Shown one piece after another: positions 27,250 to 50,426 of a stretch of 64,000 nt of DNA (position 1 is its first letter; every line of letters starts with the position of its first letter). Made by a program: the position numbers and the translations under genes. The DNA is taken from NCBI GenBank assembly GCA_934589525.1, contig CAKTOB010000011.1:1-64000 (forward strand), given 5' to 3'. This DNA comes from an uncultured Oscillospiraceae bacterium (GTDB lineage Bacteria; Bacillota; Clostridia; Oscillospirales; Oscillospiraceae). A model generated the notes under the pieces. It was not told where the DNA came from and searched no databases. It was given only the letters and a program-made list of their open reading frames with translations.

Positions 27250-27268
27250 AATTTCCCCTCCTAATGAT

Positions 27269-27297
27269 ATTATAGGAGGTCCGACGGGATTAGTCAA
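27269..27297 (-). promoter_or_regulatory. Promoter of corrinoid protein and GntR genes
   Basis: The minus strand has TTGACT (27297-27292) and TATAAT (27274-27269) with a 17-base spacer. Confidence 0.85.
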
Positions 27298-27390
27298 GAA
27301 AGGATTCTTTACACATTTCGTTAAAACGCACAAAAATATTGACATGATTTTTTATAAAATGTAGAACTTTTTGATTTTTCACTTTTCTCA

Positions 27391-27419
27391 TTGACGAATG
27401 ACTTTGATTGATTTACAAT
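27391..27419 (+). promoter_or_regulatory. Promoter of the methyltransferase operon
   Basis: TTGACG at 27391-27396 and TACAAT at 27414-27419, spacer 17 bases, pointing away from the GntR promoter. Confidence 0.75.
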
Positions 27420-27422
27420 CTT

Positions 27423-27436
27423 CTTGTACGGACAAG
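27423..27436 (+). promoter_or_regulatory. Candidate operator for the GntR regulator
   Basis: CTTGT and ACAAG form a 5+5 inverted repeat around ACGG, placed at the expected transcription start just downstream of the -10 box. A repressor bound here would block the methyltransferase operon. The link to the divergent GntR protein is inference. Confidence 0.45.
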
Positions 27437-27490
27437 TTGTTCGTTCAAGATGTTTGACTATATTGAATTGCATACCAGGGAGTGATAGAA

Positions 27491-28303: not shown

Positions 28304-28316
28304 GGAGGCCTTTATT

Positions 28317-28955: not shown

Positions 28956-28988
28956 GATTTCTGCCAGAATAGGAGGGAGAAGTAAATT

Positions 28989-30437
28989 ATGAAAACCAAA
29001 TCGAAACAAATCCATATTCTGATTGCAGTACTGGTATTTCTGGTCTTTCGTCTGATTTTGGGGAACTGTCTGGATATGGGGTTGACAGCCGCCGGTGCTT
29101 CTGCGTTGTCGCTGTTCATTGCCACCATCTACTTGTGGATCACCTATGGCTCCGGGTGGACCAGCATGCTTTCCATTGGCCTATTAGCTTTTACAGGAAT
29201 AGCTCCTGCCAATACCATTCTTGGAAATTCCTTCGGCAACTCCACCGCTGTAATTGTCATCGGTACACTGATTCTGTGCGTCGCCTTGGAAGAAAACGGT
29301 GTTACCAAGCTTATTGCGAACTGGTTTATCAGCCGGAGCATTGTCAGCAAGCGTCCCTATATGTTTCTGTTTATGTTCCTGCTGGCCAATCTGCTCATCA
29401 CCTACTTTATGGAAGCTACCGCTGTGGCGATTATCTTTTGGGCGTTGGCAAAATCCATTCTGGACAGCCTGGGTTATACCAAAGAGGACCGATTCTCCAA
29501 ATCACTGTACCTGGGTGTACTGTGGGTAACTTGCGTGGGTAATGCTGCTACGCCGATCGGTCATCCCGTTCCCTTGCTGATGCTGAACTCCATGGCGAAG
29601 ATCACGGAGCAGCCCGTTTCCTGGCTGCGCTATATGGCAATTGGCATTCCCCTTTCTCTGGTCACGTTGGGGCTGACGCTGCTGATTATTCGCTTTGTTA
29701 TCAAGCCCGACTGCGCCAAATTTGACGCCTATGATGTAGGGGAGCGCCGCAAGGAATTGCAGCCGTTAAGCGCCAAAGGTAAGATATCCCTAACCGTCTA
29801 TATCGCACTGATCATATTTTGGTTGCTGCCAGATTTTCTCGGGCCCTTCCCAGAGCTTGCTGCTAAATTCAAGGCCGTAGGCGCTTCCGTGCCCTCCCTT
29901 ATTGCTGTAGCCGTTGTCTGCGCCATTACTGTAGACGGTGAGCCTGTGCTGAAGTATGAAAGCGCTATTAAAAAAATCCACTGGTCAACCGTTATTTTCA
30001 TCGCCTGCATTTTCCTGTACGCCTCTGTTTTCAGCATGGAATCCGGCGGCATCAACGTCTTCCTGAAAGCACTGGTAGCCCCGCTGACGGACAGCCTTTC
30101 TGCTGGCGTTCTGGCGGCAGTGTTCCTGTTCCTGGTTATTTTTGCAACAAATTTTGTTTCCAACGGTGTTACGGGTATCGTAGGCATTACCGTCTGCGTT
30201 CCGGCACTACTGAGCATTTCCTCTGTTGGCTATGTCACTGCCTACGGCGTTCTGGTGGCTATGCTCTGCAACATGGGCATTGCGACCCCCGGTGGCTCCG
30301 GCTTTGTTGCCCTGGCACAGAAGGACGGCGTTGTCACCGGCAGCGAAACCATGAAATACAGTTTGCTGTTGATCCTGATGATGTATCTCAGCGTTATGCT
30401 GATTTTCTGGCCTATGGCTCAGTTGCTATTCCGCTGA
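28989..30437 (+). CDS. SLC13/DASS-type anion transporter
   Basis: The 482-residue protein has about twelve membrane helices. It matches the divalent-anion:Na+ symporter/ArsB-like superfamily: an early GNSFGNSTAVIV, the GNAATPIGHPVPLL re-entrant loop resembling the SNxT sodium/anion site, and a second-half loop FATNFVSNGVTGIVG. The family carries dicarboxylates, sulfate and similar anions. Its position inside a methyltransferase operon suggests uptake of an anionic methylated (O-, N- or S-methyl) substrate, or export of the demethylated acid. AGGAGGGAG precedes ATG 28989. Confidence 0.82.
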   Translation: MKTKSKQIHILIAVLVFLVFRLILGNCLDMGLTAAGASALSLFIATIYLWITYGSGWTSMLSIGLLAFTGIAPANTILGNSFGNSTAVIVIGTLILCVALEENGVTKLIANWFISRSIVSKRPYMFLFMFLLANLLITYFMEATAVAIIFWALAKSILDSLGYTKEDRFSKSLYLGVLWVTCVGNAATPIGHPVPLLMLNSMAKITEQPVSWLRYMAIGIPLSLVTLGLTLLIIRFVIKPDCAKFDAYDVGERRKELQPLSAKGKISLTVYIALIIFWLLPDFLGPFPELAAKFKAVGASVPSLIAVAVVCAITVDGEPVLKYESAIKKIHWSTVIFIACIFLYASVFSMESGGINVFLKALVAPLTDSLSAGVLAAVFLFLVIFATNFVSNGVTGIVGITVCVPALLSISSVGYVTAYGVLVAMLCNMGIATPGGSGFVALAQKDGVVTGSETMKYSLLLILMMYLSVMLIFWPMAQLLFR

Positions 30438-30476
30438 TCCCGTCCATTTTTTCCATGTAAGAAAGGAGATATCCCT

Positions 30477-30626
30477 ATGGCAGAAATTGCTGATTCCCTG
30501 AAGGGCGATACCTTGAAAGCTTTTGAAACCGCCGCAAAGCAGATCGCCCAAGAAAAGGGTATTGAAGAAGAGGCCGTTATGAAAACCATGAAGAAGCTGA
30601 TCTACCTGATCATCACTCGAATCTGA
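30477..30626 (+). CDS. Small 49-residue protein in the methyltransferase operon
   Basis: ATG 30477 sits seven bases after a very good GAAAGGAGA, and the frame ends at TGA 30626, sixteen bases before the UroD-family gene. The product is a charged helical peptide beginning MAEIADSLKGDTLKAFETAA and ending IYLIITRI. It has no signal peptide, no Cys and no known motif. The strong ribosome binding site and operon position argue that it is expressed. It could be a subunit or assembly factor of the methyltransferase; I cannot assign a family. Confidence 0.65.
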   Translation: MAEIADSLKGDTLKAFETAAKQIAQEKGIEEEAVMKTMKKLIYLIITRI

Positions 30627-30642
30627 AAGGGAGTGTGACCGC

Positions 30643-31812
30643 ATGAATACGGAAAAACTTTACGAGCAGCGTTTGACTCGCTTTGACGATGTGCTTAGCC
30701 GCAGGATTCCTGACCGGGTTCCGATCATCCCCAACATGAACACCTGGATGTATCACTATGCGGACATCAGCATTAAAAAGGCCTTTGTGGAAGAGCCGGA
30801 TGCAATTTTCCAGGCTGCGAAGCACCTGAATGACAATGTCCCTATGGACGGCTTACTGAGTACATCCAACACGCTGCCCATTCGTATGGCTGAAAAAATT
30901 GGTGAGGGTATCTATACCGTTTCTGACAAAGGCGTACAGATCAAGGGGGGCCACGGCCATCTGATGGAGCCTCAGGAATACCCCCTGCTGGCAGAAAACC
31001 CTATGGAATTCTTCGCAAACGTTCTTATCCCCCGGAAGTTTTCCGTCTTCCAGGCTCCCATTGAAAAAAAGGTTGACATCATCAAGCAGGCATACAGGGA
31101 CTACATGGACTACATTAAGTACAACAACTCTGCCAATTCCCGCATCGAAAAGGAGCTGGGATTGCCCATCATCGTCCGAGGCACAAACTTCCTGGCCCCT
31201 GACATCGTGCTGGACTATCTCCGGGATTTCGTAGGCATTTCCCTGGATGTGCGTCGCCACTCCGATGAGCTGCTTGCCGCCTGCATGTCGCTGTATGATT
31301 TTGTACTGGAGATGTTTGATGATACAGCCACACCGCCGAACCGCAAGGTCCTGTTCTCCCCACTGCACCTGCCCACCTATCTGCGGCCTAAAGATTTCCA
31401 GAAGCTCTATCTGCCTTTCATGAAGAAATATGTGGAGGAAATGGCTGTAAAGCGTGGATATTCCCTATATTTCTTTATGGAGAACGACTGGATGCCGTAT
31501 CTGGAACTGGTGCAGGAGCTCCCGGAGAACGCGAAGGTTGTGGGCTTGTTTGAGAAAGGTGATTTGGTCAAGATCAAGCAGAGCATCGGCAAGCAGATGG
31601 TCATTATGGGAGGCATGCCCGTGGAGTTGCTCTTGCTGGGCACCCGGGATCAGGTCATCGATAAATGTAAGGAACTGCTGGACACCCTGGCCCCTGGCGG
31701 AAACTACATTTTCTCTACGGATAAGACCCTGATGTCCTTTAGCGATGGCACACCTGAGAATATGATTGTATCTTGCGAATATATTGCTCAGAATGGCTGG
31801 TATTCAAAATAA
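30643..31812 (+). CDS. Divergent UroD-family methyltransferase
   Basis: The 389-residue protein belongs to the uroporphyrinogen decarboxylase superfamily that includes the MtaA/CmuA and O-demethylase methyltransferases. It starts with RFDDVLSRRIPDRVPIIPNM and later has VFQAPIEKK, PLHLPTYLRPKDFQKLYLPF and MVIMGGMPVELLLLGT. It should take a methyl group from the substrate and give it to the corrinoid protein. The usual His-containing and C-terminal Cys zinc positions seem replaced (FFMENDW and IFSTDK), so its chemistry may differ. It is followed directly by a terminator. Which substrate is used cannot be read from sequence. Confidence 0.82.
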   Translation: MNTEKLYEQRLTRFDDVLSRRIPDRVPIIPNMNTWMYHYADISIKKAFVEEPDAIFQAAKHLNDNVPMDGLLSTSNTLPIRMAEKIGEGIYTVSDKGVQIKGGHGHLMEPQEYPLLAENPMEFFANVLIPRKFSVFQAPIEKKVDIIKQAYRDYMDYIKYNNSANSRIEKELGLPIIVRGTNFLAPDIVLDYLRDFVGISLDVRRHSDELLAACMSLYDFVLEMFDDTATPPNRKVLFSPLHLPTYLRPKDFQKLYLPFMKKYVEEMAVKRGYSLYFFMENDWMPYLELVQELPENAKVVGLFEKGDLVKIKQSIGKQMVIMGGMPVELLLLGTRDQVIDKCKELLDTLAPGGNYIFSTDKTLMSFSDGTPENMIVSCEYIAQNGWYSK

Positions 31813-31814
31813 TT

Positions 31815-31852
31815 CCGGCGAAAACCCCTTGACACGGTCGGGGGTTTTCGTA
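31815..31852 (+). terminator. Terminator overlapping the next promoter
   Basis: CGAAAACCCC pairs with GGGGTTTTCG. The -35 box of the following promoter lies inside the loop and the -10 box directly after the stem. Confidence 0.7.
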
Positions 31853-31859
31853 CTATAAT
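31829..31859 (+). promoter_or_regulatory. Promoter of the DUF1638 gene
   Basis: TTGACA (31829-31834) and TATAAT (31854-31859) are perfect but 19 bases apart, and they overlap the terminator hairpin of the upstream operon. Confidence 0.65.
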
Positions 31860-31887
31860 GATGTAAAAATCAATTTGGAGGTTCTTC

Positions 31888-32547
31888 ATGCGTCAGCAAA
31901 TCGTGGCCTGCCAAACACTGCAGGATGAAATCAATGCCATTCTCGCCCAAAAGCAGATACAACTGCCCATTACCTTGATACCCTCTGGTCTTCACAATAT
32001 TCCCGCAAAGCTGACCCGTACCGTACAGGAAACGCTGGACAACTTGCCTCCTACGGACCAGGTCCTGATGGCTATGGCTTACTGTGGTAACGCACTGGCG
32101 GGCGTGCGAACCGGAGACTATAGTCTGGTCATTCCCAGAATGGATGACTGCATCTCACTGTTGCTGGGATCTTCCGCCGTTCATAACCGACAGTACCGGG
32201 GCATCTACTTCATGACCGCAGGCTGGATTCGGGGAGAACGAAACTTGATGACGGAATACAGGTATACCCAGGAGAAATACGGAGCAAAGCTCGGGCAGGA
32301 GATTTTTAATACCATGTTTAAGCATTATACCGATGTGGCCCTGCTGAATACCGGGTGCTTCGATCTCCGGGAAGCTGAAGAGGAAACCCGGCGCACAGCC
32401 GAGGCGCTGCACCTGGGTTATCAGGAGGTCCCGGCCACCCTTTCCGTCCTCGCTGGCCTATTTTCTCAGACCCATCCGGATGATCACTATCTGACCGTTC
32501 CGCCCCGCACGGAGATCACCAATGAGATGCTGGTCCTGGCGGAATAG
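31888..32547 (+). CDS. DUF1638 family protein
   Basis: The 219-residue protein matches DUF1638, a family found mostly next to corrinoid methyltransferase genes. Visible features are an N-terminal IVACQTLQDEINAIL, a central MAMAYCGNALAG followed by IPRMDDCISLLLG, and YFMTAGWIRGE. Conserved Cys, Asp and His residues (YCGN, DDC) suggest a metal or cofactor site. The function is unknown; genomic company suggests a part in corrinoid or methyl-group metabolism. It has its own promoter and terminator. GGAGG precedes ATG 31888. Confidence 0.8.
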   Translation: MRQQIVACQTLQDEINAILAQKQIQLPITLIPSGLHNIPAKLTRTVQETLDNLPPTDQVLMAMAYCGNALAGVRTGDYSLVIPRMDDCISLLLGSSAVHNRQYRGIYFMTAGWIRGERNLMTEYRYTQEKYGAKLGQEIFNTMFKHYTDVALLNTGCFDLREAEEETRRTAEALHLGYQEVPATLSVLAGLFSQTHPDDHYLTVPPRTEITNEMLVLAE

Positions 32548-36561: not shown

Positions 36562-37581
36562 TCAGCGGTTGCCATACATCTTTTCGTAGTAGTTCTGATA
36601 CTCCCCGGAGATGATGGTCTGCCACCAGTCCTTATTGTCCAGGTACCAGCGAATGGTCTTTTTGATGCCGTCCTCAAACTTGGTTTCCGGCAGCCAGCCC
36701 AGCTCATTGTGGATTTTGGTGGGGTCGATGGCGTAGCGCATATCGTGGCCCTTCCGGTCCCCAACATGGGTGATGAGGGATTCGGGCTTGCCCAGCTCTT
36801 TGCAGATGATCTTCACGATTTCAATGTTCTGCTTCTCGTTGTGGCCGCCTACGTTGTAAACCTCTCCTACCCGGCCCTTGTGGATGATCAGGTCGATGGC
36901 CTTGCAGTGGTCTTCCACATACAGCCAGTCCCGGACGTTCAGGCCTTCGCCGTAGACGGGCAGGGGCTTGTCCGCCAGGGCGTTGGCGATCATCAGGGGG
37001 ATCAGCTTCTCGGGGAAGTGATAGGGGCCGTAGTTATTAGAGCAGCGGGAAATGGTCACGGGCAGACCGTAGGTCCGGTGGTAGGCCATGACCAGCAGGT
37101 CCGCGGCAGCCTTGGAGGAGGAGTAGGGGGAGCTGGTGTGGATGGGGGTCTCCTCGGTGAAGAACAGGTCCGGCCGGTCCAGGGGCAGGTCGCCGTAGAC
37201 CTCGTCGGTGGAGACCTGGTGGTAGCGGGTGATGCCGTACTTCCGGCAGGCATCCATCAGGGTGGCGGTGCCCATGATGTTGGTCTGCAGGAAGATGCCG
37301 GGGTCTTCAATGGAGCGGTCCACATGGCTCTCTGCGGCGAAGTTCACCAGGATGTCCGGGTGCTCCTCTTCAAAGAGCTTGTAGACCCCTTCCCGGTCGC
37401 AGATGTCCAGCTTCACGAAGCGGAAGTTGGGGTTGTCCATCACGGGGGCCAGGGTGCTGAGGTTTCCGGCGTAGGTCAGCTTGTCCAGGCAGACAATGCG
37501 GTAGTCCGGGTACTTGTTCAGCATATGGAATACAAAGTTGCTTCCGATAAATCCGGCGCCGCCGGTAACAATAATGGTCAT
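36562..37581 (-). CDS. rfbB: dTDP-glucose 4,6-dehydratase
   Basis: The 339-residue short-chain dehydrogenase has the NAD motif VTGGAGFIGSNFVFHML, the HQVSTDEVYGDLP segment with catalytic Asp-Glu, and YSSSKAAADLLVMAYHRTYG with Tyr-x3-Lys. It turns dTDP-glucose into dTDP-4-keto-6-deoxyglucose. The start 37581 follows GGAGGCAATT. There are no rmlC or rmlD genes next to it, so the product is not dTDP-rhamnose; the FdtA-like and aminotransferase genes at 44-45.6 kb fit instead. The base composition is GC-rich, unlike the neighbouring rfbA. Confidence 0.95.
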   Translation of the reverse strand: MTIIVTGGAGFIGSNFVFHMLNKYPDYRIVCLDKLTYAGNLSTLAPVMDNPNFRFVKLDICDREGVYKLFEEEHPDILVNFAAESHVDRSIEDPGIFLQTNIMGTATLMDACRKYGITRYHQVSTDEVYGDLPLDRPDLFFTEETPIHTSSPYSSSKAAADLLVMAYHRTYGLPVTISRCSNNYGPYHFPEKLIPLMIANALADKPLPVYGEGLNVRDWLYVEDHCKAIDLIIHKGRVGEVYNVGGHNEKQNIEIVKIICKELGKPESLITHVGDRKGHDMRYAIDPTKIHNELGWLPETKFEDGIKKTIRWYLDNKDWWQTIISGEYQNYYEKMYGNR

Positions 37582-37612
37582 AATTGCCTCCAATTCCACC
37601 TATGTAAAAAAT

Positions 37613-38503
37613 TTATTTGTAACGAACCTTACCTTCAGATACAGCCCGCAGATGAGCCCCGTACGGGCTCTTCCCATATCGATCAGCAGCCGTAAGCAGC
37701 TTCTCCTGCGAAATCCATCCATTTTTATATCCGATTTCTTCCGGAGCAGAAATGGTAATTCCTTGACGTTTTTCCATCATGCGAATAAAATCAGCTGCCT
37801 CCACCAGACTTTCCATAGTACCGGTATCCAGCCAAGCAAAGCCACGGCCAAGTAACTGCACATCCAGCCGCTCTTGCTTTAAATACATCTCATTTAGCGT
37901 GGTTATTTCCAACTCACCCCGGGCTGACGGAACTACGTCATGTGCCATTTGAGAAACGCCCTGGGGATAGAAGTATAAACCAGTGATTGCATAATTACTT
38001 TTGGGATTCTGTGGTTTTTCCTCAACTGAAAGAACTTTGCCAGTATCGTCAAACTCCACTATGCCAAATCGTTCAGGGTCATTGACATAATACCCAAAAA
38101 CAGTTGCACGAAGGTTGTTTTCCGCATTTTGAACTGCCTCTTTCAGCACAGTGCTAAAGCCGTTCCCATAGAAAATATTATCTCCAAGCACCATAGCGCA
38201 GGCATCGTCACCGATGAACTTCTCTCCCAGCAAAAATGCCTGGGCTAACCCATCAGGGCTAGGTTGCACCTTATAACTCAGATGAATTCCAAACTGACTT
38301 CCATCTCCCAGCATTGCCTCAAACCGTGGTGTATCGGTAGGCGTAGAAATAATCAGAATGTCCCTGATTCCCGCCAGCATCAATGTTGACAGCGGATAAT
38401 AAATCATAGGTTTATCGTACACAGGTAGGAGCTGCTTGGATGTAACCAGCGTCAAAGGATATAGCCGAGTTCCAGCTCCACCCGCAAGAATAATACCCTT
38501 CAT
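37613..38503 (-). CDS. rfbA: Glucose-1-phosphate thymidylyltransferase
   Basis: The 296-residue nucleotidyltransferase starts [20 protein letters not shown], then [32 protein letters not shown] and the ALOSTERIC-type C-terminal [15 protein letters not shown] typical of RmlA. It makes dTDP-glucose from glucose-1-phosphate and dTTP, the entry step of the pathway. It uses AT-rich codons, unlike rfbB, and marks one edge of the AT-rich island. AAAGGATTC precedes the ATG. Confidence 0.94.
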
Positions 38504-38527: not shown

Positions 38528-39694
38528 TTATCCAAGGGCTATTGTCTCTCGTGGGAATCTTTGGATTTTACGTTTGATTATTCTGACACCATTCATCATG
38601 GACAGCAGTACATAGCAGCAAAAGAATGTCCAGGAAACTGCAGAAAGAAATCCTGCCATTGAAAATGAAAATGCCTGCAAAAACATCAGATTAATAAGGT
38701 CTTTGGTAATACATAATAATACAAATAACCTAAGAAATACATAGCGCTGCGCTTCAAGCGCCTTAAAATCATTTTTGATAAAATATAAGAACCGGTATAC
38801 GAATGCTCGAAGGCCACTTTCATGATTGTCACGCCGCAAACTCATATCCAGCCACAGAATGTCCTTCATCCATCGACGACGATACTTTTTCTTTTCCTGC
38901 GGCGACAATGCCTCCAACATTGGCATGAGAAGTTCTTTATCCATTTTAAGTAAATCTGAATAATACATTCTAGCAGACGCTGATAGCGTATCACTCTGAC
39001 CATGACTGATTCCGCCATCCCGATGCCTAATAGTTACATGATTCACATAATGAATAATGTAGTTTTCATTTGCCAGACGACAATGCATCGGAAAATCCTC
39101 GACCAAATTATAGTCTTCGTCAAAGTCGCCAAAACAATCGAAGAAGGTTCTTTTGAAACAAGTGCTTGTAGTTGGCAAACACGCACCATAGCGGGCTAAC
39201 ATTTTTTTTAGAGAATCAGTGCTGACTGCTGTTTCCATCAAGGCTTTTTGAACGGGCAATGTCATGTAATAGCTCATAACCTTACGGAGTTTCTGATCGC
39301 ACATGGCTGTTTGTGCCATTTCAATGCCACATTCCTCAGGTGCCTCCATAAACCCATCATGATAATGGTGCAAAACCTGCGTATTATATAATGCATCGTC
39401 TCCAGCGAGGAAAATGATGTAATCACCGCTACAGCAGGCCTTTACATGATTAAGATGTTTAACGGTCCCGACATTTTTAGGTTCCTGCCGTATGATAACT
39501 GATTGAATATTCTCTTTCTTATGCTTCTCAATATAGTTTCTAATTTTCTCAGATGGGAAGTTAGGTGAACCATCATCGGATACAATCAGTTCAATATTAT
39601 CGTAATCCTGAGAAAGCACAGAATCAACTGCTGCTTTGAGATGTTCGAAGTGTCGGTATACTAAAACAACAACCGAAAACAGAGGACTAGCCAT
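38528..39694 (-). CDS. Family 2 glycosyltransferase with C-terminal helices
   Basis: The 388-residue protein has a GT-A domain: SVVVLVYRHFEHLKAAVDSVLSQDY, ELIVSDDGSPN and the FLAGDDALYN DxD-type motif, then EDFPMHCRL in the acceptor region. The last 90 residues contain two hydrophobic helices (FSMAGFLSAVSWTFFCCYVLL), so it is membrane-attached. It is adjacent to and similar in architecture to the next gene upstream. The transferred sugar is unknown. AAAGGAGGG precedes the ATG. Confidence 0.85.
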   Translation of the reverse strand: MASPLFSVVVLVYRHFEHLKAAVDSVLSQDYDNIELIVSDDGSPNFPSEKIRNYIEKHKKENIQSVIIRQEPKNVGTVKHLNHVKACCSGDYIIFLAGDDALYNTQVLHHYHDGFMEAPEECGIEMAQTAMCDQKLRKVMSYYMTLPVQKALMETAVSTDSLKKMLARYGACLPTTSTCFKRTFFDCFGDFDEDYNLVEDFPMHCRLANENYIIHYVNHVTIRHRDGGISHGQSDTLSASARMYYSDLLKMDKELLMPMLEALSPQEKKKYRRRWMKDILWLDMSLRRDNHESGLRAFVYRFLYFIKNDFKALEAQRYVFLRLFVLLCITKDLINLMFLQAFSFSMAGFLSAVSWTFFCCYVLLSMMNGVRIIKRKIQRFPRETIALG

Positions 39695-39696
39695 AA

Positions 39697-41058
39697 TTAC
39701 AAATCCCTCCTTTCCTTAAGTGACAAGGAAACAGTCATAACACAAGAAACTAAACGAAGCAACACGTATCCACCCGCCGCAACCGCAAACAGCACAGCCC
39801 ATAGCAATGAAGCATTATGTATTGGCAATATTCTCACCTGTATCCCATAAAACAGGAAACACAATGTATACACAGCGTTCAAACTCGGTGAGGTTTTTTT
39901 CTTGTATAGCCAAAAATACAACAAAACTACCGCACTAATAAGGGTGGTTAACAGTCTCATTTCCGGAATTTGCTGGGCAAAATAAAACAGCAAAAGTACT
40001 AATAACAGCGTCACTAAAGTGCGATTGTCATATTTAATTTTAAACCCACTTGCATGCTGACGATAGAATTTTGACTGCAGTAAAAATCGTAGATGCTTGA
40101 CTTTCCACATCAAGCGGTCATAATACGACATATACTCCCATTCGAATTCGCTTACAATTCTCGCTCGAATCGCTTCCGTGCAATGCCTGCACTTTTTCAA
40201 ATTCTTCTTGTCCCGATTTTTTTGCAGTTCCGGTATGGAAATGTTCTCCAGCATACGAACACACTCTTCATAGTGCTGTATGCCCAATGTTTCATTGATG
40301 TTGCTGAGACTGTTCGATATGCCACCATACCGGTAAATCGTTACAGTATCGTCAATACAAGTAATCTTTGTTCCTCTCTGTGTGATTAAAAGCCATGTGG
40401 GCCAATCTTCTGTAAATTTATATTCTGCATCAAATCCGCCTATTTCGTCGTATAACTCTCTTGTCCAAAACACAGCTGGTGCATTGATATGTTCGCACCA
40501 CGCCTGCGTACTCAATAAGTTGAACTGTCCAACACAGTTACTAGACTGCATCTTCTGAATAGACTGAACGCTAGGATAATAATCTGTCGTCAATACGCCT
40601 TCCTGAGTACAAGCCACCGACCGCCCCGCAATAATCCGTATATTCTCATCTCGTAAAAAGCGACGTGCAATGCTACTCACAGTCGATGACTTATAAAGCA
40701 TATCATCACCCGCATGGAGTTTAAAGATTTTTCCAGACGATAGTGCAATACCCTTCATTGCATTGCTTGTTGTTCCAACATTTTCTTCCTGTTGAAACAC
40801 AACATAGTTCTTTAGATTCGGCTGTTTCAATTCTTCGATCAACTTTATTGTTTTTTCTACATCAAAATCTTGGCTCGCATCATCGCACACAATTAGCTCA
40901 AGATAAGGGTAGTCTTGCTTTAAAATTGACTTGAGGCAGGGCCTTAAAAACTCCTGCTGGTTATAAGTCAAAACGATTATAGAAACCAGCGGATATTTTC
41001 TTTTGCCTACCTTAACTATCTGATTTGACATTCTATCGAAACTATTTTCTTTTATCAT
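39697..41058 (-). CDS. Family 2 glycosyltransferase with C-terminal helices
   Basis: The 453-residue protein has a GT-A domain (VSIIVLTYNQQEFLRPCLKS, LELIVCDDASQDF, KLHAGDDMLYK as the DxD-like motif, FTEDWPTWLL). It ends with three hydrophobic segments. It is followed after two bases by the other family 2 enzyme, and the two probably add successive sugars. It is AT-rich. GGGGAAAA precedes the ATG at close spacing. Confidence 0.85.
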   Translation of the reverse strand: MIKENSFDRMSNQIVKVGKRKYPLVSIIVLTYNQQEFLRPCLKSILKQDYPYLELIVCDDASQDFDVEKTIKLIEELKQPNLKNYVVFQQEENVGTTSNAMKGIALSSGKIFKLHAGDDMLYKSSTVSSIARRFLRDENIRIIAGRSVACTQEGVLTTDYYPSVQSIQKMQSSNCVGQFNLLSTQAWCEHINAPAVFWTRELYDEIGGFDAEYKFTEDWPTWLLITQRGTKITCIDDTVTIYRYGGISNSLSNINETLGIQHYEECVRMLENISIPELQKNRDKKNLKKCRHCTEAIRARIVSEFEWEYMSYYDRLMWKVKHLRFLLQSKFYRQHASGFKIKYDNRTLVTLLLVLLLFYFAQQIPEMRLLTTLISAVVLLYFWLYKKKTSPSLNAVYTLCFLFYGIQVRILPIHNASLLWAVLFAVAAGGYVLLRLVSCVMTVSLSLKERRDL

Positions 41059-41140: not shown

Positions 41141-42007
41141 TTATTTATCCACGTTGGACGGATGTTTTCCGTCCAGGTCATACACATAGAATCCTTTTCC
41201 AGTTTTGATTCCCAGCCATCCGCCTCGAACCATCTTTCTCAGCAAAGGATGAGGGCGATACTTGGTATCTCCAGTTTCAGACTGCAAGACCTCCATAATT
41301 GCGAGGCAAATATCCAGTCCTATCATATCCCCAAGCTCCAACGGCCCCATAGGATAATTTGCACCCAACTTCATAGCCGAATCAATGCAATCCGCAGAAG
41401 TAATTCCATCTGCATATAAGCCGATTGCCTCATTAATCATAGGGATCAGCACCCGATTCACAACAAAACCGGAATGATCCTTCACTTCTATCGGGCATTT
41501 ACCCAGTTCCCGTGCTATCTGGATAATTCTATTAACTATTTCACGAGAGGTATTCAGAGAAGGAGCAACCTCAACCAGCTTCATAACTGGCGCTGGATTG
41601 AAGAAATGCATTCCAATAACACTATGCTGAATACCATTTGCAATTTCAGTAATCGACAATGATGATGTATTTGTAGCGAATATGCACTTCTCCTGGCAAA
41701 CGGCATCAAGTTGTCTGAACAATTGTTGCTTTGCCACTAGAGATTCTTCAATGGATTCAATGACAAGTTCACACTCTGTGAGTTCATCATATGTCCCAAT
41801 TGTAATGTTGGACAACACCGAAGTCATATCCTCTTGGGTCATTTTTCCTTTTTTTACTCTGCTAGAAAGCCGCTTTGAAATAACTATTTTTCCTTTTTCG
41901 GCAGATGCTTTTGAGCGGCTACACAGAATCACGTTAAAATCATGCTGTGCAAAAATCTGAGCTATTCCACTCCCCATTGTACCTGCGCCAACAATGCCTA
42001 CATTCAT
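41141..42007 (-). CDS. 3-hydroxybutyryl-CoA dehydrogenase
   Basis: The 288-residue enzyme is full length. NVGIVGAGTMGSGIAQIFAQ is the NAD site, SSLSITEIA and GMHFFNPAPVMKLVEV contain the catalytic region, and SGFVVNRVLIPMINEAI the C-terminal domain. It reduces acetoacetyl-CoA to (S)-3-hydroxybutyryl-CoA. It overlaps the thiolase gene (ATGA) and has AGGAGACGA upstream of the chosen start, 42007. Such genes usually lie in butyrate operons with crotonase and acyl-CoA dehydrogenase; here it is inside a sugar locus with neither, suggesting it supplies 3-hydroxybutyryl-CoA for acylation. Confidence 0.93.
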   Translation of the reverse strand: MNVGIVGAGTMGSGIAQIFAQHDFNVILCSRSKASAEKGKIVISKRLSSRVKKGKMTQEDMTSVLSNITIGTYDELTECELVIESIEESLVAKQQLFRQLDAVCQEKCIFATNTSSLSITEIANGIQHSVIGMHFFNPAPVMKLVEVAPSLNTSREIVNRIIQIARELGKCPIEVKDHSGFVVNRVLIPMINEAIGLYADGITSADCIDSAMKLGANYPMGPLELGDMIGLDICLAIMEVLQSETGDTKYRPHPLLRKMVRGGWLGIKTGKGFYVYDLDGKHPSNVDK

Positions 42008-43191
42008 TTGTCGTCTCCTCTCTTTACAATCACAGAACAGCCCATCCCGCCTCCAATACACAGCGTGGCCAGTCCAAAAGTTGCATTTCGTCTCTTCATT
42101 TCGTACAACAATGTAACTAGAATACGGCAACCCGAGGCTCCTACCGGATGTCCCAATGCGATTGCACCACCGTTGACGTTTAATTTATCCTCAGGGAAAT
42201 TCAATTCCCGTGCAACAGCTATAGACTGGGCTGCGAACGCTTCGTTTGCCTCAATAAGATCTAAGTCTTCTACCGTCATATCAAGTTTATCCAGGATTTT
42301 CCTTGTTGATGCCACTGGTCCGATTCCCATAATTTCCGGGGCCACCCCTCCTAAAGCACCGCCTAACCACTCTGCCATAGGTGTTAGTTCCAGTTCGCGA
42401 AGCTTTTCTTCACTCACCAATACTACCGCTGCAGCACCGTCATTAATAGTAGAGGAATTTCCAGCTGTCACCAGACCATTTTCCTGAAAGGCTGGACGTA
42501 AACGCCCCAGTGCATCTTCTGTAGTACCAAAGCGAATTCCCTCGTCAGCATCGAATACAACAGTCTGCTTCTTCTGCTTAATTACAACGGGGACAATCTC
42601 ATCCTTGAAGCGTCCATCTAGCACCGCCGCTTCTGCCTTACTTTGACTCTTCGCAGCAAATTCGTCTAATTCTTTTCGGGACAGATTCCACTTTTTGCAC
42701 ACATTTTCGGCAGTCACGCCCATGTGATAATCATTAAAGGCTTCCCACAGCGCATCATTTACCATAGCATCCATCATTGAAGCATTTCCCATGCGATAGC
42801 CATAGCGAGCCTGCTTTAAAAGATACGGAGCCGAAGACATGTTCTCCACACCGCCCGCAACAACGATGTCCGCATCTCCGCATCGAATCATCCTTGCGGC
42901 ATTATTTACACTATCCAATCCGGAGCCACAGACAACGTTAATGGTTTCTGCGGTTGTCTCAACCGGCAAACCCGCTTTGATTGATGCCTGTCTAGCAATA
43001 TTCTGTCCAAGCCCAGCCTGAATCACGCAACCCATAAATACATGATCTACCTCTTCTGGGCTTATTCCTGCCCGGGCTACAGACTCTTTGATGACCAAGG
43101 CTCCCATTTCAGCTGCAGGCACTCCGCTTAGACTGCCTCCCATTTTACCGATTGGCGTCCTACATGCACTTACTAAATATACTTTCTTCAT
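42004..43191 (-). CDS. Acetyl-CoA C-acetyltransferase (thiolase)
   Basis: The 395-residue thiolase has all catalytic parts: the active Cys in NVVCGSGLDSV near residue 88, NEAFAAQSI, GGAIALGHPVGASG with the active His, and CIGGGMG with the second Cys. It condenses two acetyl-CoA into acetoacetyl-CoA. The start 43191 follows GGAGGATTGAC. Together with the next gene it gives a two-step route to 3-hydroxybutyryl-CoA. It lies two bases after the acyltransferase gene, in the same operon. Confidence 0.94.
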   Translation of the reverse strand: MKKVYLVSACRTPIGKMGGSLSGVPAAEMGALVIKESVARAGISPEEVDHVFMGCVIQAGLGQNIARQASIKAGLPVETTAETINVVCGSGLDSVNNAARMIRCGDADIVVAGGVENMSSAPYLLKQARYGYRMGNASMMDAMVNDALWEAFNDYHMGVTAENVCKKWNLSRKELDEFAAKSQSKAEAAVLDGRFKDEIVPVVIKQKKQTVVFDADEGIRFGTTEDALGRLRPAFQENGLVTAGNSSTINDGAAAVVLVSEEKLRELELTPMAEWLGGALGGVAPEIMGIGPVASTRKILDKLDMTVEDLDLIEANEAFAAQSIAVARELNFPEDKLNVNGGAIALGHPVGASGCRILVTLLYEMKRRNATFGLATLCIGGGMGCSVIVKRGDDK

Positions 43192-43192
43192 G

Positions 43193-44053
43193 TCAATCCT
43201 CCAAATCGTCAATATGGAATTTTTCTCTTTGCGGAATGTTCAAACTTTCATACCATGTTTTAAAATCGCTCTCAGACCAGGGCATATAATGAAAAAAGTG
43301 ATTCCGCCAAGGGTACGCAGCCTCCCCCGTGATTTTATGCTTCAGTTTTCTGACGTCCGTAACTACTTTTCCGGGGTTTCCCACCACAACGGCATAAGAG
43401 GGGACATTTTTTGTAACATTTGAACATGCACCAATCAGTGCATCCTGTCCTATCTCAACGCCAGGCATAACAACAGTCCCAGTTGCGACTACCGCAAATG
43501 GCTTAATATGTACTCCTATAAAATGGTCCGAAGGAGGTGTTGGGTCATTTGTTAGGACAACATAAGGAAATATCCAGACAAAATCCTCAACTGTGGACAG
43601 CTGGCCAATATGGACATTACTGTGCATTCTAACATAATTCCCGATTCTGCAATTTCCCTGAATATCGGACAGCGTGCCAACACTTACATGATCACCAATT
43701 TCAGAGCACTCACGGACTGTAACTCTGTGACCAGTTTGGAATTCATTGCCAATGGTCGATCCAGCATATAGAATGGAGCCACTGCGAATCAAGGCATTAC
43801 TGCCAATCGTCAAGGGATGCGCATGAGCAGTTCGCTCCAAGCAAAAATCCATCCAATACTCACCAAGAATGCAATTGGAACCCACAAACGAATCATCTCC
43901 CAATGTAACGTGGCTACGAATAATTGAATTGCTGTCAATATACACGTTGTTTCCAATCGATACGTTATCTTCAACAATTACATTATGCCCCAGAACCACG
44001 CCTTCACCAAAGGTTACTCGTTCTCCAATATTACAGTTATTTCCTTTTTGCAT
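43193..44053 (-). CDS. Left-handed beta-helix acyltransferase
   Basis: The 286-residue protein is built of hexapeptide repeats (IGERVTFGEGVVLGHNVIV onward, I/V-G-x-x-x-x units through residue 225), with a late PGVEIGQDALIGACSNV and a helical C-terminus. The family includes the dTDP-3-amino-3,6-dideoxyhexose N-acetyltransferases (FdtC/QdtC) and WbbJ-like enzymes. Encoded right after the aminotransferase and right before the thiolase, it probably acylates the 3-amino group. The acyl donor may be acetyl-CoA or the 3-hydroxybutyryl-CoA made next door. AAAGGAGGCC precedes the ATG. Confidence 0.85.
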   Translation of the reverse strand: MQKGNNCNIGERVTFGEGVVLGHNVIVEDNVSIGNNVYIDSNSIIRSHVTLGDDSFVGSNCILGEYWMDFCLERTAHAHPLTIGSNALIRSGSILYAGSTIGNEFQTGHRVTVRECSEIGDHVSVGTLSDIQGNCRIGNYVRMHSNVHIGQLSTVEDFVWIFPYVVLTNDPTPPSDHFIGVHIKPFAVVATGTVVMPGVEIGQDALIGACSNVTKNVPSYAVVVGNPGKVVTDVRKLKHKITGEAAYPWRNHFFHYMPWSESDFKTWYESLNIPQREKFHIDDLED

Positions 44054-44070
44054 AAATGGCCTCCTTTGTT

Positions 44071-45177
44071 TTATTTGAACTGATTTATAGCGTCAATCAC
44101 ATAGCTGATTTGCTCATCCGTCATACCATAGAACATAGGTAGACTTAACACCGTATTACTTATTTTTTCTGCCAGCGGTAGTGCTCCCTTATGGATATTT
44201 AGCGATTCATAACAGGGCTGCATGTGCATGGGAACCGGATAATGAATCACAGTTGCGATTCCCTTTTCTTTCAAATAAGTCTCCAGCGCATTCCGCTTAT
44301 CACAGCGAATGACGAAGACATGATAAATATGGTCAAAAACTTCATCCACAGGCAAGGGGAGCTGAATCAAAGGGTTGGTAATCTCACTGAGATAGCGTGC
44401 TGCAATTCTCTTCCGGTCATTGTTCCAGGCATCCAGGTGCGGCAACTTCACCCGAAGCAGCGCTGCCTGCATTTCATCCAGTCGGCTGTTAGTGCCCTGG
44501 TAGATATGATGATACTTGCGATCGCTACCATAGTTTCCAAGCGCTCGAACTCTATCCGCAATCTCTTTATTATTGGTTACAACGCAGCCCGCATCCCCCA
44601 TAGCTCCTAGATTCTTGCCGGGATAGAAGCTAAAAGCGGCAGCATCACTCAACGTTCCGATTTTCCGTCCCTTGTATCGTACACCATGGGCCTGGGCAGC
44701 ATCTTCAACGACCCTCAGATGATAACGGGCTGCAAGCTCGTTAATTGGATCCATATCAGCAGCACGCCCCTGTAGGTGAACGGCAATGATTGCCTTCGTT
44801 CTGGGTGTGATTTTTTCTTCGATTCGTGCCGGATCAATGTTATAGGTTTCCAGGATTGGCTCTACAAATACAGGAGTTGCTCCACAATAAGTCACTGCCA
44901 GTGCCGTAGCGATAAAGGTATTACTAGGAACAATTACTTCATCTCCCTGCCCAATATCCATGGCACGCAAAATCAAGAAAATTGCATCCAGTCCAGTTGC
45001 AACACCAACGCAATGTTTTGCCTGGCAATAGTCAGCGAACTCTTTTTCAAAAGCCGCACACTCCGGTCCCTGAATGAAGGAACTGTTATCTACAACTCTA
45101 ACAAACGCCTCATTCAATTCAGAACGGAGCTCATTGTGCATAGGTTTGAAATCAGCAAATGGAACATTCATTTTCAT
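44071..45177 (-). CDS. dTDP-keto-sugar aminotransferase, FdtB/QdtB-like
   Basis: The 368-residue DegT/DnrJ/EryC1/StrS enzyme shows NVPFADFKPMH, VGVATGLDAIFLILRAM, DEVIVPSNTFIATALAV, VEDAAQAHG and the PLP lysine in SFYPGKNLGAMGDAG. With the FdtA-like isomerase it would make dTDP-3-amino-3,6-dideoxygalactose or -glucose. The start 45177 (MKMN) has ATGGAGGTAATA upstream. Whether the product is the galacto or gluco form depends on the isomerase and is not clear. Confidence 0.92.
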   Translation of the reverse strand: MKMNVPFADFKPMHNELRSELNEAFVRVVDNSSFIQGPECAAFEKEFADYCQAKHCVGVATGLDAIFLILRAMDIGQGDEVIVPSNTFIATALAVTYCGATPVFVEPILETYNIDPARIEEKITPRTKAIIAVHLQGRAADMDPINELAARYHLRVVEDAAQAHGVRYKGRKIGTLSDAAAFSFYPGKNLGAMGDAGCVVTNNKEIADRVRALGNYGSDRKYHHIYQGTNSRLDEMQAALLRVKLPHLDAWNNDRKRIAARYLSEITNPLIQLPLPVDEVFDHIYHVFVIRCDKRNALETYLKEKGIATVIHYPVPMHMQPCYESLNIHKGALPLAEKISNTVLSLPMFYGMTDEQISYVIDAINQFK

Positions 45178-45191
45178 TATTACCTCCATTA

Positions 45192-45611
45192 TTATGTGTG
45201 CTGGTTTAATACAGCCTCATAGTCAAATACATAGTCGTTCTTATCGTATTTCTTGTCCACAATGGCAAGTAAAACGGTATTTGGAGAAAAATTAGACATT
45301 TCTCGCCAGACAAATGAATGAATATAAATTCCATCATTTGGCTTGTCCAAATGAACACATTTTCTCTCCTTCCCGTTATCGACTAAGATATCACAGCTAC
45401 CATTTAGGCACAGTAACACTTGATGCAAGTCCTTGTGAGCATGTCTTCCCCTGGTTACCTCTGGAGAAACATTATAGATATAATAAATACGATTTATTTG
45501 AAACGGAATTCCATTTCCTTCCTCAATGGCCACAAGATTCCCTCGTTCGTCCCCGTGGACAGCCATGGTAATTCGATCAACACCGTTTATCAGTGGACTC
45601 AGTACTGCCAT
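45192..45611 (-). CDS. dTDP-4-keto-6-deoxyglucose 3,4-ketoisomerase, FdtA/QdtA-like
   Basis: The 139-residue single cupin domain carries GRHAHKDLHQVLLCLNGSC and the later YIHSFVWREMSNFSPNTVLL, as in FdtA, QdtA and WxcM. It moves the keto group from C4 to C3, so that an aminotransferase can place nitrogen at C3. ATG 45611 has AAGGGGG at good spacing although it overlaps the end of the preceding glycosyltransferase by 35 bases. It is AT-rich like its neighbours. Confidence 0.9.
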   Translation of the reverse strand: MAVLSPLINGVDRITMAVHGDERGNLVAIEEGNGIPFQINRIYYIYNVSPEVTRGRHAHKDLHQVLLCLNGSCDILVDNGKERKCVHLDKPNDGIYIHSFVWREMSNFSPNTVLLAIVDKKYDKNDYVFDYEAVLNQHT

Positions 45612-46539
45612 TTTGTACCCCCTTACTATTCTTCATCTGTCGAATTATATTTTCTGGGTAAATCAAATATAACGCTAATCGACTGTACCATTTAGTAGTA
45701 CAAGAAAGCTTAGATAGAAATCTCCCATATCTTACTGTTTTTATCTTCCATCCCCAGTGTAAGAGTCGAACTCTCCAACATTTTGAGCAATAAGGAAGTA
45801 TTTCTCTCCGGAAAATACGCTCATTTTCTTCCATCAATTTTAGAATTTTCCCAGGCGAGCTAACTCCGTTTGACTGGCAACACACTACTTCCTCCGAGAA
45901 AAAATCCAACCTTACTCCGCTTCGTAATAGTTTCATAACTCTGGGATAGTCTTCTGTCAATCGATAGGATTCATCATAAAAACCGTATGTCTCAAAGCTG
46001 CTCCAACTCTGTGCTGTGGCAGCACCAAATACATAATTGGTCACCGCCAAATCATCAAACAGTTCTTGTGGCGTTAATGTCTTAATTTTCTTTACTTCCC
46101 ATAATTCTGGTTTGCACTGAGCTCCCCCTACAGCGTTGCTAGTAATCAGCTGTCGTTTAGCTGTGCAAATCACAGATTGGCTTTTAACCATATATGCAGT
46201 CCAGCCCGAAAGAACTTCCGGTCCCATAAAAACATCATCATCTGCCAGATTGAATACAAAATCTCCTCTTGTTTCTGCAAGAGCAGCATTCAAAGCCCTT
46301 ACAGTGCCCACATTTTCTTTCAGAGCAATAATACTCCAATGCACATTTTCCCGGGAATGAGAATCTAAATACTCCCTGATTTTCTCCGGAGAGAAGCCAA
46401 CATCGCCATCTACAACGATGATATATTGAACATTCGGGTAGGACTGCATCAAAACCGAATCGACAGAGCAAAAAAGTGTTTTACTCTCATAGTGAGGTGT
46501 TATAACCGTAATCAAAGGGGATTTATCCATGTTACCCAT
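45577..46539 (-). CDS. Family 2 glycosyltransferase
   Basis: The 320-residue GT-A protein has LITVITPHYESKTLFCSVDS, QYIIVVDGDVGFSP and the metal-binding FNLADDDVFMG, with YRLTEDYPRVMKLL in the second half. It is smaller than the other two family 2 enzymes and lacks obvious C-terminal helices. ATG 46539 or 46530 could start it; both overlap or touch the ABC ATPase stop. The 3' end overlaps the FdtA-like gene. Confidence 0.85.
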   Translation of the reverse strand: MGNMDKSPLITVITPHYESKTLFCSVDSVLMQSYPNVQYIIVVDGDVGFSPEKIREYLDSHSRENVHWSIIALKENVGTVRALNAALAETRGDFVFNLADDDVFMGPEVLSGWTAYMVKSQSVICTAKRQLITSNAVGGAQCKPELWEVKKIKTLTPQELFDDLAVTNYVFGAATAQSWSSFETYGFYDESYRLTEDYPRVMKLLRSGVRLDFFSEEVVCCQSNGVSSPGKILKLMEENERIFRREILPYCSKCWRVRLLHWGWKIKTVRYGRFLSKLSCTTKWYSRLALYLIYPENIIRQMKNSKGVQNGSTESTDKRC

Positions 46540-47275
46540 TGGCCTGTCGATACATTCTAAAAGCATCTTCCGAGGGCATGAAGCACATTAGCTTACCATG
46601 GTCTAACCAAGCTGCTTTCTGGCATAATTCCTTTACCTGCTCCTCACTGTGACTTACAAACAGGAGCGTGGTGCCTCCCTCCATCATATACGCCATACGT
46701 TCCTTGCATTTTTGCTGAAAACGATAGTCGCCAACAGACAAAATTTCGTCCACAACGAGGATATCTGCACGGACCTCCGTAGCAATGGCAAAGCCTAACC
46801 GCGCCACCATACCGCTAGAGAAATTCTTCACAGGCACATCAATAAACTCCCAGAGCTCCGCAAAATCCACAATGCTCCGAAAATGGGCATCCATGAACTT
46901 TCGGTCATGGCCCAGCACCGCACCATTCAGATAGATATTTTCCCGTGCCGTCAAATCGGGGTCAAAACCGGCGCCAAGCTCAATCAAGGGCGCAATGCTT
47001 CCATGAACCTTGACGCTTCCAGAACTGGGATACAGCACTCCTGCCATGCATTTCAGCAGAGTACTTTTGCCACTCCCGTTGGCACCGATCAAGGCTACGG
47101 ATTCCCCCCTGTTGACGGTCAGGTTTACACCCTTTAATGCGTAGAATTCGTTGAACATCAGTTGACGTTTCACAAGCTTGACAAGATATTCTTTAAAAGT
47201 ATCGGTTTTTTCCTTTGCCAGATTAAAGCGCATGGACACATTCTTTACTTCAATAATGGGTTCTGTTTTCTGCAT
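46532..47275 (-). CDS. Polysaccharide ABC exporter ATPase, short Wzt/TagH type
   Basis: The 247-residue ATPase has Walker A LIGANGSGKSTLLKCM, signature NFSSGMVARLGFAIA (degenerate, as in Wzt/TagH), Walker B ILVVDEILSVGD and switch LLFVSHSEEQV. It lacks the C-terminal carbohydrate-binding domain of O9a-type Wzt, so export should not depend on a chain-cap modification. ATG 47275 has GGGAGGAAAG upstream. The permease is encoded just before it in the operon. Confidence 0.94.
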   Translation of the reverse strand: MQKTEPIIEVKNVSMRFNLAKEKTDTFKEYLVKLVKRQLMFNEFYALKGVNLTVNRGESVALIGANGSGKSTLLKCMAGVLYPSSGSVKVHGSIAPLIELGAGFDPDLTARENIYLNGAVLGHDRKFMDAHFRSIVDFAELWEFIDVPVKNFSSGMVARLGFAIATEVRADILVVDEILSVGDYRFQQKCKERMAYMMEGGTTLLFVSHSEEQVKELCQKAAWLDHGKLMCFMPSEDAFRMYRQANG

Positions 47276-47289
47276 ATACTTTCCTCCCA

Positions 47290-48066
47290 TTAGATATACA
47301 AAATGAAGTTGCGCTGCATTTTGCGGAAGACCAGCATTCCCGCAGCCAGAGCCGCCACGCTGACCCAAATACATCGCCACCACATAGCTGCCTCCGGCAC
47401 CGTGCCATAGAGCACCAGCTCCCGGAAGAACGTAATATAGGAGCACATGGGATTTGCCTGAACCACAGGTATGATTTCCTCCGGCAAGGCATTGACCGGA
47501 TAGAAAATCGGAGTCAGATACATCCAGGCCAAGGTCAGCACTCCATACAAGTGGGTAATGTCCCGGAAATAGACGCTAAGGGCGGACAGCACCATCCCAA
47601 TACCCATAGAAAACAGCAGCAGAAACAGCAGCGGCATAGGGAACAGCAGAATTGTCCAATAAAACGGTGCTTTTGTAAACAGCATGACGATGACGATTGC
47701 CGCCAAGGAAAAGCTCATGGTCACAAAGCTGGAAAGTACCCGGCTGATGGGGAAAATGAACTTGGGGATATATACCTTTTTGATCAAGCTGCCGTTCTGC
47801 AAGACAGAATACATGCTCATATTGGTGCTTTCATTGAAAAATGCCCATAGCGTTTGTCCAGTGATCAGGTACAACGGGAAATTTGGAATGTCAAACCGGA
47901 ACATATAGCTGAATACTACCGTCATCACGGACATCATCAACAACGGATTCAAAAGGCTCCACACATAGCCCAGAAGGCTTCTGCGGTATTTTACTTTTAA
48001 ATCCCGCCCGACCAACTCCTTCAGGAGGGGCTTATATTGCAGGAAGTGCTGCCATGCTTCTTTCAT
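47290..48066 (-). CDS. Polysaccharide ABC exporter permease, Wzm/TagG type
   Basis: The 258-residue membrane protein has six helices and the ABC-2 pattern: an amphipathic N-terminus (LLKELVGRDLKVKYRRSLLGYVWSLLNPL is one segment, residues 14-42), then PLYLITGQTLWAFF, LSALSVYFRDITHL and NPMCSYITFFRELV. With the ATPase it moves lipid-linked glycan across the membrane. Its ATG overlaps the stop of the upstream glycosyltransferase. Confidence 0.93.
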   Translation of the reverse strand: MKEAWQHFLQYKPLLKELVGRDLKVKYRRSLLGYVWSLLNPLLMMSVMTVVFSYMFRFDIPNFPLYLITGQTLWAFFNESTNMSMYSVLQNGSLIKKVYIPKFIFPISRVLSSFVTMSFSLAAIVIVMLFTKAPFYWTILLFPMPLLFLLLFSMGIGMVLSALSVYFRDITHLYGVLTLAWMYLTPIFYPVNALPEEIIPVVQANPMCSYITFFRELVLYGTVPEAAMWWRCIWVSVAALAAGMLVFRKMQRNFILYI

Positions 48067-50244: not shown

Positions 50245-50329
50245 TGGTGGGGGAAGGTGGATTCGAACCACCGAAGCTATAAGCAGCAGATTTACAGTCT
50301 GTCCCCTTTGGCCACTCGGGAATTCCCCC
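50245..50329 (-). tRNA. tRNA-Tyr (anticodon GTA), CCA encoded
   Basis: The minus strand folds into an 85-base class II tRNA. The acceptor is GGGGGAA/TTCCCCC, the anticodon loop CTGTAAA with GTA, a long variable arm (GCTTATAGC) follows, and the T arm has GGTTCGAATCC. CCA is in the DNA at the 3' end. Confidence 0.97.
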
Positions 50330-50350
50330 ATGTTTACTTTTGCCTTCGTG

Positions 50351-50426
50351 TGGAGCCGGTAGACGGACTCGAACCCCCGACCTGCTGATTACAAATCAGC
50401 TGCTCTACCAACTGAGCTATACCGGC
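50351..50426 (-). tRNA. tRNA-Thr (anticodon TGT), CCA encoded
   Basis: Acceptor GCCGGTA/TACCGGC, D arm AGCTCAGTTGGTAGAGC, anticodon stem GCTGA/TCAGC with loop TTTGTAA, and T arm GGTTCGAGTCC give a standard 76-base threonine tRNA. It is transcribed with tRNA-Tyr. Confidence 0.97.

Follow-up and report, generated by a model that had tools for sequence, protein, structure and literature searches.

We analyzed a stretch of DNA from an uncultured Oscillospiraceae bacterium (64,000 nucleotides of contig CAKTOB010000011.1, hereafter the window), in which genes for a thiolase and a 3-hydroxybutyryl-CoA dehydrogenase (HBD) lie within a locus for a dTDP-3-amino sugar, directly behind the gene for a QdtC-type N-acyltransferase (AcT). 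The five genes FdtA, FdtB, AcT, thiolase and HBD are all open and co-directional on the minus strand, from 45611 to 41141 and within 4.5 kb, with gaps along transcription of +2, +17, +1 and -4 bp. This bears out the tight gene order given in the original prediction, which was made from the letters alone, as well as its placing of rfbA and rfbB further on; these two lie on the same strand, after two GT2 genes. The features of the locus, beginning with the five central genes, are:

45192..45611, minus strand: FdtA/QdtA-type dTDP-4-keto-6-deoxyglucose 3,4-ketoisomerase (PF05523, 151 bits; solved relatives include FdtA 2pa7 and QdtA 4o9e)
44071..45189, minus strand: FdtB/QdtB-type 3-aminotransferase (PF01041, 394 bits; named from its position beside FdtA and AcT)
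43193..44053, minus strand: QdtC-family beta-helix N-acyltransferase, AcT, a proposed 3-hydroxybutyryltransferase (PF00132; 309 bits with QdtC, 3fs8)
42004..43191, minus strand: biosynthetic-type thiolase, proposed to convert two acetyl-CoA to acetoacetyl-CoA (PF00108, 343 bits, and PF02803; Cys/His motifs)
41141..42007, minus strand: 3-hydroxybutyryl-CoA dehydrogenase, HBD (PF02737 and PF00725; Ser, His/Glu and Asn motifs)
38528..41058, minus strand: two GT2 glycosyltransferases between HBD and rfbA (PF00535)
37613..38503, minus strand: rfbA-like glucose-1-phosphate thymidylyltransferase (PF00483, 252 bits)
36562..37599, minus strand: rfbB-like dTDP-glucose 4,6-dehydratase (PF16363, 299 bits)
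45577..48066, minus strand: GT2 glycosyltransferase and Wzt/Wzm-like ABC exporter genes, upstream of FdtA (PF00535, PF00005, PF01061)

The Pfam matches of all five central proteins exceed their cut-offs; the FdtB-like aminotransferase reached no NCBIfam cut-off. The start of HBD was taken to be the ATG at 42007 (288 aa), a 329-aa version with a TTG start being a mechanical extension of the open reading frame.

We propose, with a probability of roughly 78%, that the thiolase and HBD form a donor module that supplies (S)-3-hydroxybutyryl-CoA for the N-acylation of dTDP-Fuc3N or Qui3N. In this scheme, RfbA, RfbB, FdtA and FdtB would make a dTDP-3-amino-3,6-dideoxyhexose, the thiolase would convert two acetyl-CoA to acetoacetyl-CoA, and HBD would turn the latter into (S)-3-hydroxybutyryl-CoA. 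AcT would then place the 3-hydroxybutyryl group on the 3-amino group of dTDP-Fuc3N or Qui3N, and the glycosyltransferases and the Wzm/Wzt exporter would build the acylated sugar into a surface glycan. The proposal builds on observed gene content and order, intact catalytic motifs, recurrence of the arrangement with non-orthologous enzymes, and the way in which adjacent pairs and ordinary HBD genes complement each other; all substrates and products, the (S) stereochemistry and the export as a surface glycan are predictions. Judged by gene content, the donor genes lie inside the sugar operon, which places the locus with operon-borne acyl-donor synthesis.

The best solved matches of the thiolase are acetyl-CoA acetyltransferases, and those of HBD are 3-hydroxyacyl- or 3-hydroxybutyryl-CoA dehydrogenases. 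Aligned to these solved relatives, the thiolase keeps its Cys/His/Cys motifs and HBD its Ser/His/Glu/Asn motifs, which we take to be catalytic. HBD-family enzymes yield (S)-3-hydroxyacyl-CoA, so that an (S) amide is predicted, and as 3-hydroxyacyl-CoA dehydrogenases they are established to work on CoA thioesters. The latter argues against a different order of events, in which AcT would move acetoacetyl and the keto group would be reduced later on the sugar nucleotide, as the Pseudomonas syringae scheme implies for VioR; excerpts of that work do name dTDP-N-acetoacetylviosamine as a precursor (PMC3927599), and for the window we regard this order as highly improbable.

Alternatively, AcT could be an ordinary acetyltransferase, as QdtC is, and the thiolase and HBD could be a piece of butyrate metabolism carried along in the island as passengers. 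In keeping with a passenger origin, the two proteins are 67% and 55% identical to the thiolase and HBD of a butyrate operon in genome G007. The crotonase, acyl-CoA dehydrogenase and Etf-like proteins of that operon (the latter two kinds named by eye) had no counterpart in the 64 kb by tblastn (E<=1e-3), in agreement with the earlier claim that crotonase and acyl-CoA dehydrogenase are absent. By these G007 queries the window is not a clostridial butyrate operon, being without crotonase, acyl-CoA dehydrogenase and Etf.

The acetyltransferase part of this explanation bears on AcT itself. Among solved structures, QdtC is its sole close relative (the next distinct match scores 61 bits), and AcT, which scores 367 bits with profile A1, is of the QdtC type by its beta-helix (hexapeptide) fold. 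According to the excerpted text of PMC2943079, QdtC acetylates Qui3N and Fuc3N in a CoA-dependent reaction and has the active-site residues His123, His134, Glu141, Asn159 and Asp160, which favors plain acetylation. Against it, AcT and its relatives deviate at two of these positions: His134, Asn159 and Asp160 are conserved in AcT and in 119/119 listed relatives, and His123 and Glu141 are replaced by Gly133 and Gln151 in AcT, with Gly/Gln in all 119 as well. Since AcT does not have the His123/Glu141 pair, we do not call it an acetyltransferase like QdtC. Gln at QdtC position 141 is found in 23 of 27 genome loci. Some HBD is present in 21 of the 22 Gln141 loci whose genome was searched (the exception is G010) and in one (G022) of the four genomes with another residue (Pro in L018, Ala in L022, Glu in L041 and L042), giving p=0.006 with genomes taken as independent. 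Two examples are L008 (Lachnospiraceae bacterium C6A11), which combines Gln141 with canonical HBD and crotonase, and L018 (Succinimonas amylolytica DSM 2873), with Pro at 141 and no HBD found. Gly at position 123 was partly selected for in loci L001-L022, which were chosen by a match to TLSDIQGN or to a second pattern; the 119 listed relatives were not so selected. We hypothesize that positions 123 and 141 act in donor choice. A further acyltransferase, QdtC-like by eye (L049, 9169-9978), also has Gly/Gln at these positions and no adjacent pair; judging by it, the His/Glu of QdtC may be a local exception.

The arrangement recurs with different enzymes. Of 27 readable AcT loci in all, 22 (L001-L022) came from a scan of genome contigs, and in eight of these (L001-L005, L011, L013, L016) AcT is directly followed by a dehydrogenase gene, HBD', and then by a thiolase gene, THL'. 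A separate search added a ninth such locus, that of G383 (contig L035, AcT 50% identical), which reads FdtB-AcT-HBD'-THL' and, further on, rfbA-rfbB-glycosyltransferase-FdtA. HBD' is a 3-hydroxyacyl-CoA dehydrogenase of another branch (about 437 aa, 29% identity to the window HBD) that retains the Ser, His/Glu and Asn motifs, and THL' is a thiolase of another branch (about 415 aa, 27% identity over 169 residues to the window thiolase) with an HDCF motif, presumably typical of SCP2-type thiolases. These loci have the same gene logic as the window with non-orthologous enzymes, and the presence of a pair of other branches at the same place in nine loci argues against a passenger fragment. FdtA and FdtB lie within the fetched DNA of four of the nine (L001, L002, L003, L035), in L001 and L002 distant, weak and on the opposite strand. 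In the AcT tree, L011, which has the pair, is sister (support 98/82) to L012, which lacks it and whose genome holds a canonical HBD, so the pair state changes among close AcTs. In a further locus, L006, an HBD' remnant with a stop lies directly behind AcT (10858-11112), and the same genome, G006, has two intact HBD'/THL' pairs elsewhere.

The HBD'/THL' pair travels also with other ACYLTRANSFERASES, in three further pairs in sugar loci. One of the two G006 pairs (L025) is directly behind an acyltransferase of the NeuD/PglD family (TIGR03570, over cut-off), in a locus that also holds a deacetylase, a formyltransferase and a LegC-like aminotransferase; the second (L026) is beside an LpxD-like acyltransferase that scores below the LpxD cut-off. 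In G430, which has no PF00378 match, the genes after HBD'/THL' encode a polysaccharide deacetylase, a GNAT protein, a DegT aminotransferase and a protein that matches the sugar transferase of the window (L034). Each of the 12 pairs read thus lies directly behind AcT or shares its locus with an acyltransferase and sugar genes. HBD' is rare, having two carriers among 391 class-level genomes searched, one of them the centre genome, G006. The pairs could also make another 3-hydroxyacyl-CoA, or the acyl group could go to another acceptor such as a glycan hydroxyl: the THL' branch may act on other chain lengths, and a Shewanella polysaccharide mixes 3-hydroxy-3-methylbutyrate and 3-hydroxybutyrate, according to excerpts of PMC3210612. 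What the window pair matches best among solved structures, given above, argues against another product, and the QdtC-like AcT directly behind FdtA/FdtB argues against another acceptor; we think both very unlikely.

The distribution of adjacent pairs complements that of ordinary HBD genes. In the nine genomes with AcT-HBD'-THL', HBD' is the sole PF00725 match and there is no PF00378 (crotonase) match, so that the route appears to stop at 3-hydroxybutyryl-CoA. The lack of crotonase speaks against butyrate metabolism, a function that the tblastn searches leave unsupported in the window as well. A PF00108 search in eight of these genomes gave THL' as best match, with weaker extra matches of 24-37 bits in G003, G004 and G011 that were taken, by size, to be ketoacyl synthases. 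Among the 17 tested AcT genomes without an adjacent pair, canonical HBD (defined by a strong match to PF00725, at E 8e-40 to 1e-33) is present in 12 (G007, G008, G009, G012, G014, G015, G017, G019, G020-G022, G1102) and a crotonase-family match in 13, namely these 12 and G018; the five without canonical HBD are G006, G010, G018, G805 and G986. In these counts G006 is pair-free despite its HBD' remnant behind AcT and its two pairs elsewhere, and so is L019, where only about 60 bases are visible behind AcT and the genome's only HBD is on another contig with crotonase. All 12 AcT genomes with canonical HBD therefore have no adjacent pair (12/12), which again argues against a passenger, and we consider the combination of plain acetyltransferase and passenger genes unlikely. 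Fisher tests gave p=0.0007 for HBD, 0.0005 for crotonase and 0.0017 for HBD without G018 and G020-G022, with G1183 excluded from the p-values; these tests treat as independent genomes that are drafts of unstated completeness, related by kinship and in some cases near-identical (L001/L002). Taken together, the nine of 27 loci with a pair and the absence of a crotonase match in those nine genomes support the original prediction that the cell carries its own supply of 3-hydroxybutyryl-CoA for sugar acylation.

A second trio of the window's own type may exist. The nearest non-self relatives of AcT (P0002, 88%), HBD (P0121, 85%) and the thiolase (P0242, 87%) each list a longest contig of 54,783 bases, and from this identical size we infer a second AcT/thiolase/HBD trio, at 85-88% identity, on one contig that is itself unread. 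Among the best 120 relatives of each protein, AcT and thiolase have five exact contig sizes of at least 3 kb in common (mean 0.39, maximum 2 at shifted lengths), AcT and HBD one (mean 0.22, maximum 2; three matches below 3 kb were set aside) and HBD and thiolase two (mean 0.27, maximum 3). By number alone, sharing in the two latter comparisons is no more than chance allows, and the case for the trio rests on the one size common to the top relatives of all three proteins. No second readable window-type trio was found among the AcT-bearing genomes in three samples (2/396, 4/396 and 1/22, the centre genome being one of the matches in both 396-genome samples and not in the 22-genome sample). With the nine HBD'/THL' loci and this probable trio, adjacent CoA genes are not confined to the window; their absence from every other copy of the locus had been named as refuting the idea.

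Several points weigh against the donor-module proposal. QdtC, the closest studied relative of AcT, uses acetyl-CoA (PMC2943079, in excerpt). The AcT of G010 is of the same type (Gln141), yet its genome has neither HBD nor crotonase, and the AcTs of G805 and G986 occur without any HBD. FdtA and FdtB were not seen in the fetched DNA of five of the nine HBD'/THL' loci (L004, L005, L011, L013, L016). The kinship and draft state of the genomes behind the Fisher tests, and the unread contig of the second trio, belong here too.

Around the central genes, GC content is 41-46% at 38-48 kb, 53-63% across most of the rest and about 50% at 26-32 kb, and we infer that the low-GC stretch at 38-48 kb is an exchanged polysaccharide island. 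A resolvase-family gene (PF00239, 49367-49972) adjoins it, with tRNA-Tyr and tRNA-Thr next door (50245-50426), a possible integration point. Downstream of rfbA and rfbB are a DUF4422 gene and a sugar transferase gene. The window rfbB shares 94% identity with its L003 counterpart and, in two pieces, 91-95% with the one in L004; the other sugar genes of these loci are far less similar to the window (AcT 65-66%), as if rfbB had a different history. The claim that rmlC and rmlD are absent holds for the stretch at 26.6-54.7 kb, of which 25 proteins were scanned with Pfam; the RmlD_sub_bind match of rfbB is the weaker match of a dehydratase. At 26602-32547, two B12-binding proteins, pterin-binding and URO-D-family proteins, a CitMHS transporter and DUF1638 resemble a cluster for a corrinoid methyltransferase.

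Two unrelated kinds of thiolase/HBD pair are found behind QdtC-type acyltransferases, and the HBD'/THL' kind also occurs with PglD-like, LpxD-like and GNAT acyltransferases. The interest lies in this wider pattern, in which unrelated enzyme pairs take the same place and complement ordinary HBD genes. A joint reading, to which we give even odds, is that acyl-donor synthesis is a plug-in module: hosts without a further source of 3-hydroxybutyryl-CoA would retain HBD'/THL', AcT in butyrate producers would tap the fermentation intermediate and feed it into the (S)-3-hydroxybutyryl decoration of the coats of gut bacteria, and Gln at QdtC 141 would mark such AcTs. In place of an 'acetyltransferase' annotation, the proposed donor module predicts, in a testable way, which acyl group a surface sugar of a gut or rumen bacterium bears, with the adjacent thiolase/HBD as a context marker for 3-hydroxybutyryl versus acetyl and Gln at position 141 as a candidate residue marker. 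If true, the butyrate pathway and surface-glycan decoration have a common intermediate in common gut Firmicutes.

Among known systems, the closest in gene order is QdtA/QdtB/QdtC, for the dTDP-Qui3NAc of an S-layer glycan, presumably from T. thermosaccharolyticum, with the same succession of ketoisomerase, aminotransferase and beta-helix acyltransferase. QdtC uses acetyl-CoA and has His123/Glu141, in the text excerpted from PMC2943079, whereas the window has Gly/Gln there and two CoA genes behind AcT. The FdhC/QdhC group (E. coli O103, Acinetobacter Sv23, Hafnia) places 3-hydroxybutanoyl on Fuc3N or Qui3N and is described as (R), whereas (S) is predicted for the window; the excerpts do not address the source of the acyl donor for the Hafnia and Acinetobacter loci (PMC4869667, PMC3726653). 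AcT is not an FdhC by fold family, the O103:H2-locus acyltransferase, taken as FdhC from its place in the locus, being a GNAT (PF13302) and AcT a PF00132 protein; the 8.6 kb covered of the O103:H2 locus carry neither a thiolase nor an HBD annotation. (S)-3-hydroxybutanoyl amides do occur on bacillosamine-type sugars (PMC8074265, PMC3210612, both in excerpt).

An E. coli locus (L043, strain X14-3, NZ_CP084055.1, 5473-8965; at least 80% of it in 3/5426 E. coli genomes) holds rfbA, a sugar 3,4-ketoisomerase, a QdtC-like acyltransferase (42% identity to AcT, Gln at 141), a MaoC-family dehydratase and an aminotransferase; the MaoC protein may be a donor enzyme too, one that would yield (R)-3-hydroxyacyl-CoA. 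Like the locus in the window, the anthrose operon antABCD combines sugar genes with a gene of CoA metabolism that serves the acyl group (antA, which we take to encode a hydratase); as far as the excerpted sources go, it does so for a 4-amino sugar and 3-hydroxy-3-methylbutyryl, with other enzymes. In the capsule/LPS region of Vibrio cholerae O31 NRT36S, ORF14, annotated as a 3-hydroxybutyryl-CoA dehydrogenase, is two genes from the probable acetyltransferase ORF12 (PMC1847822, in excerpt); the word thiolase does not occur in that paper, and its excerpts assign ORF14 no role. Among the matches listed from the open-licence PMC literature, none describes in its excerpted text a thiolase/HBD donor module of an amino-sugar locus.

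A parallel in principle is the P. syringae pv. tabaci viosamine island (vioA, vioB, vioT, vioM, vioS, vioR and acp), which encodes both a synthase and a reductase for the N-(3-hydroxybutyryl) group of its sugar and in which deletion of vioR abolished modified viosamine (PMC3927599, in excerpt). Operon-borne donor synthesis is already known from that island, and its thiolase/HBD form is new as far as the literature searched, in excerpts, extends: P. syringae uses an ACP-linked synthase III and a reductase for a 4-amino sugar, whereas the window would use a CoA-linked thiolase and HBD for a 3-amino sugar.

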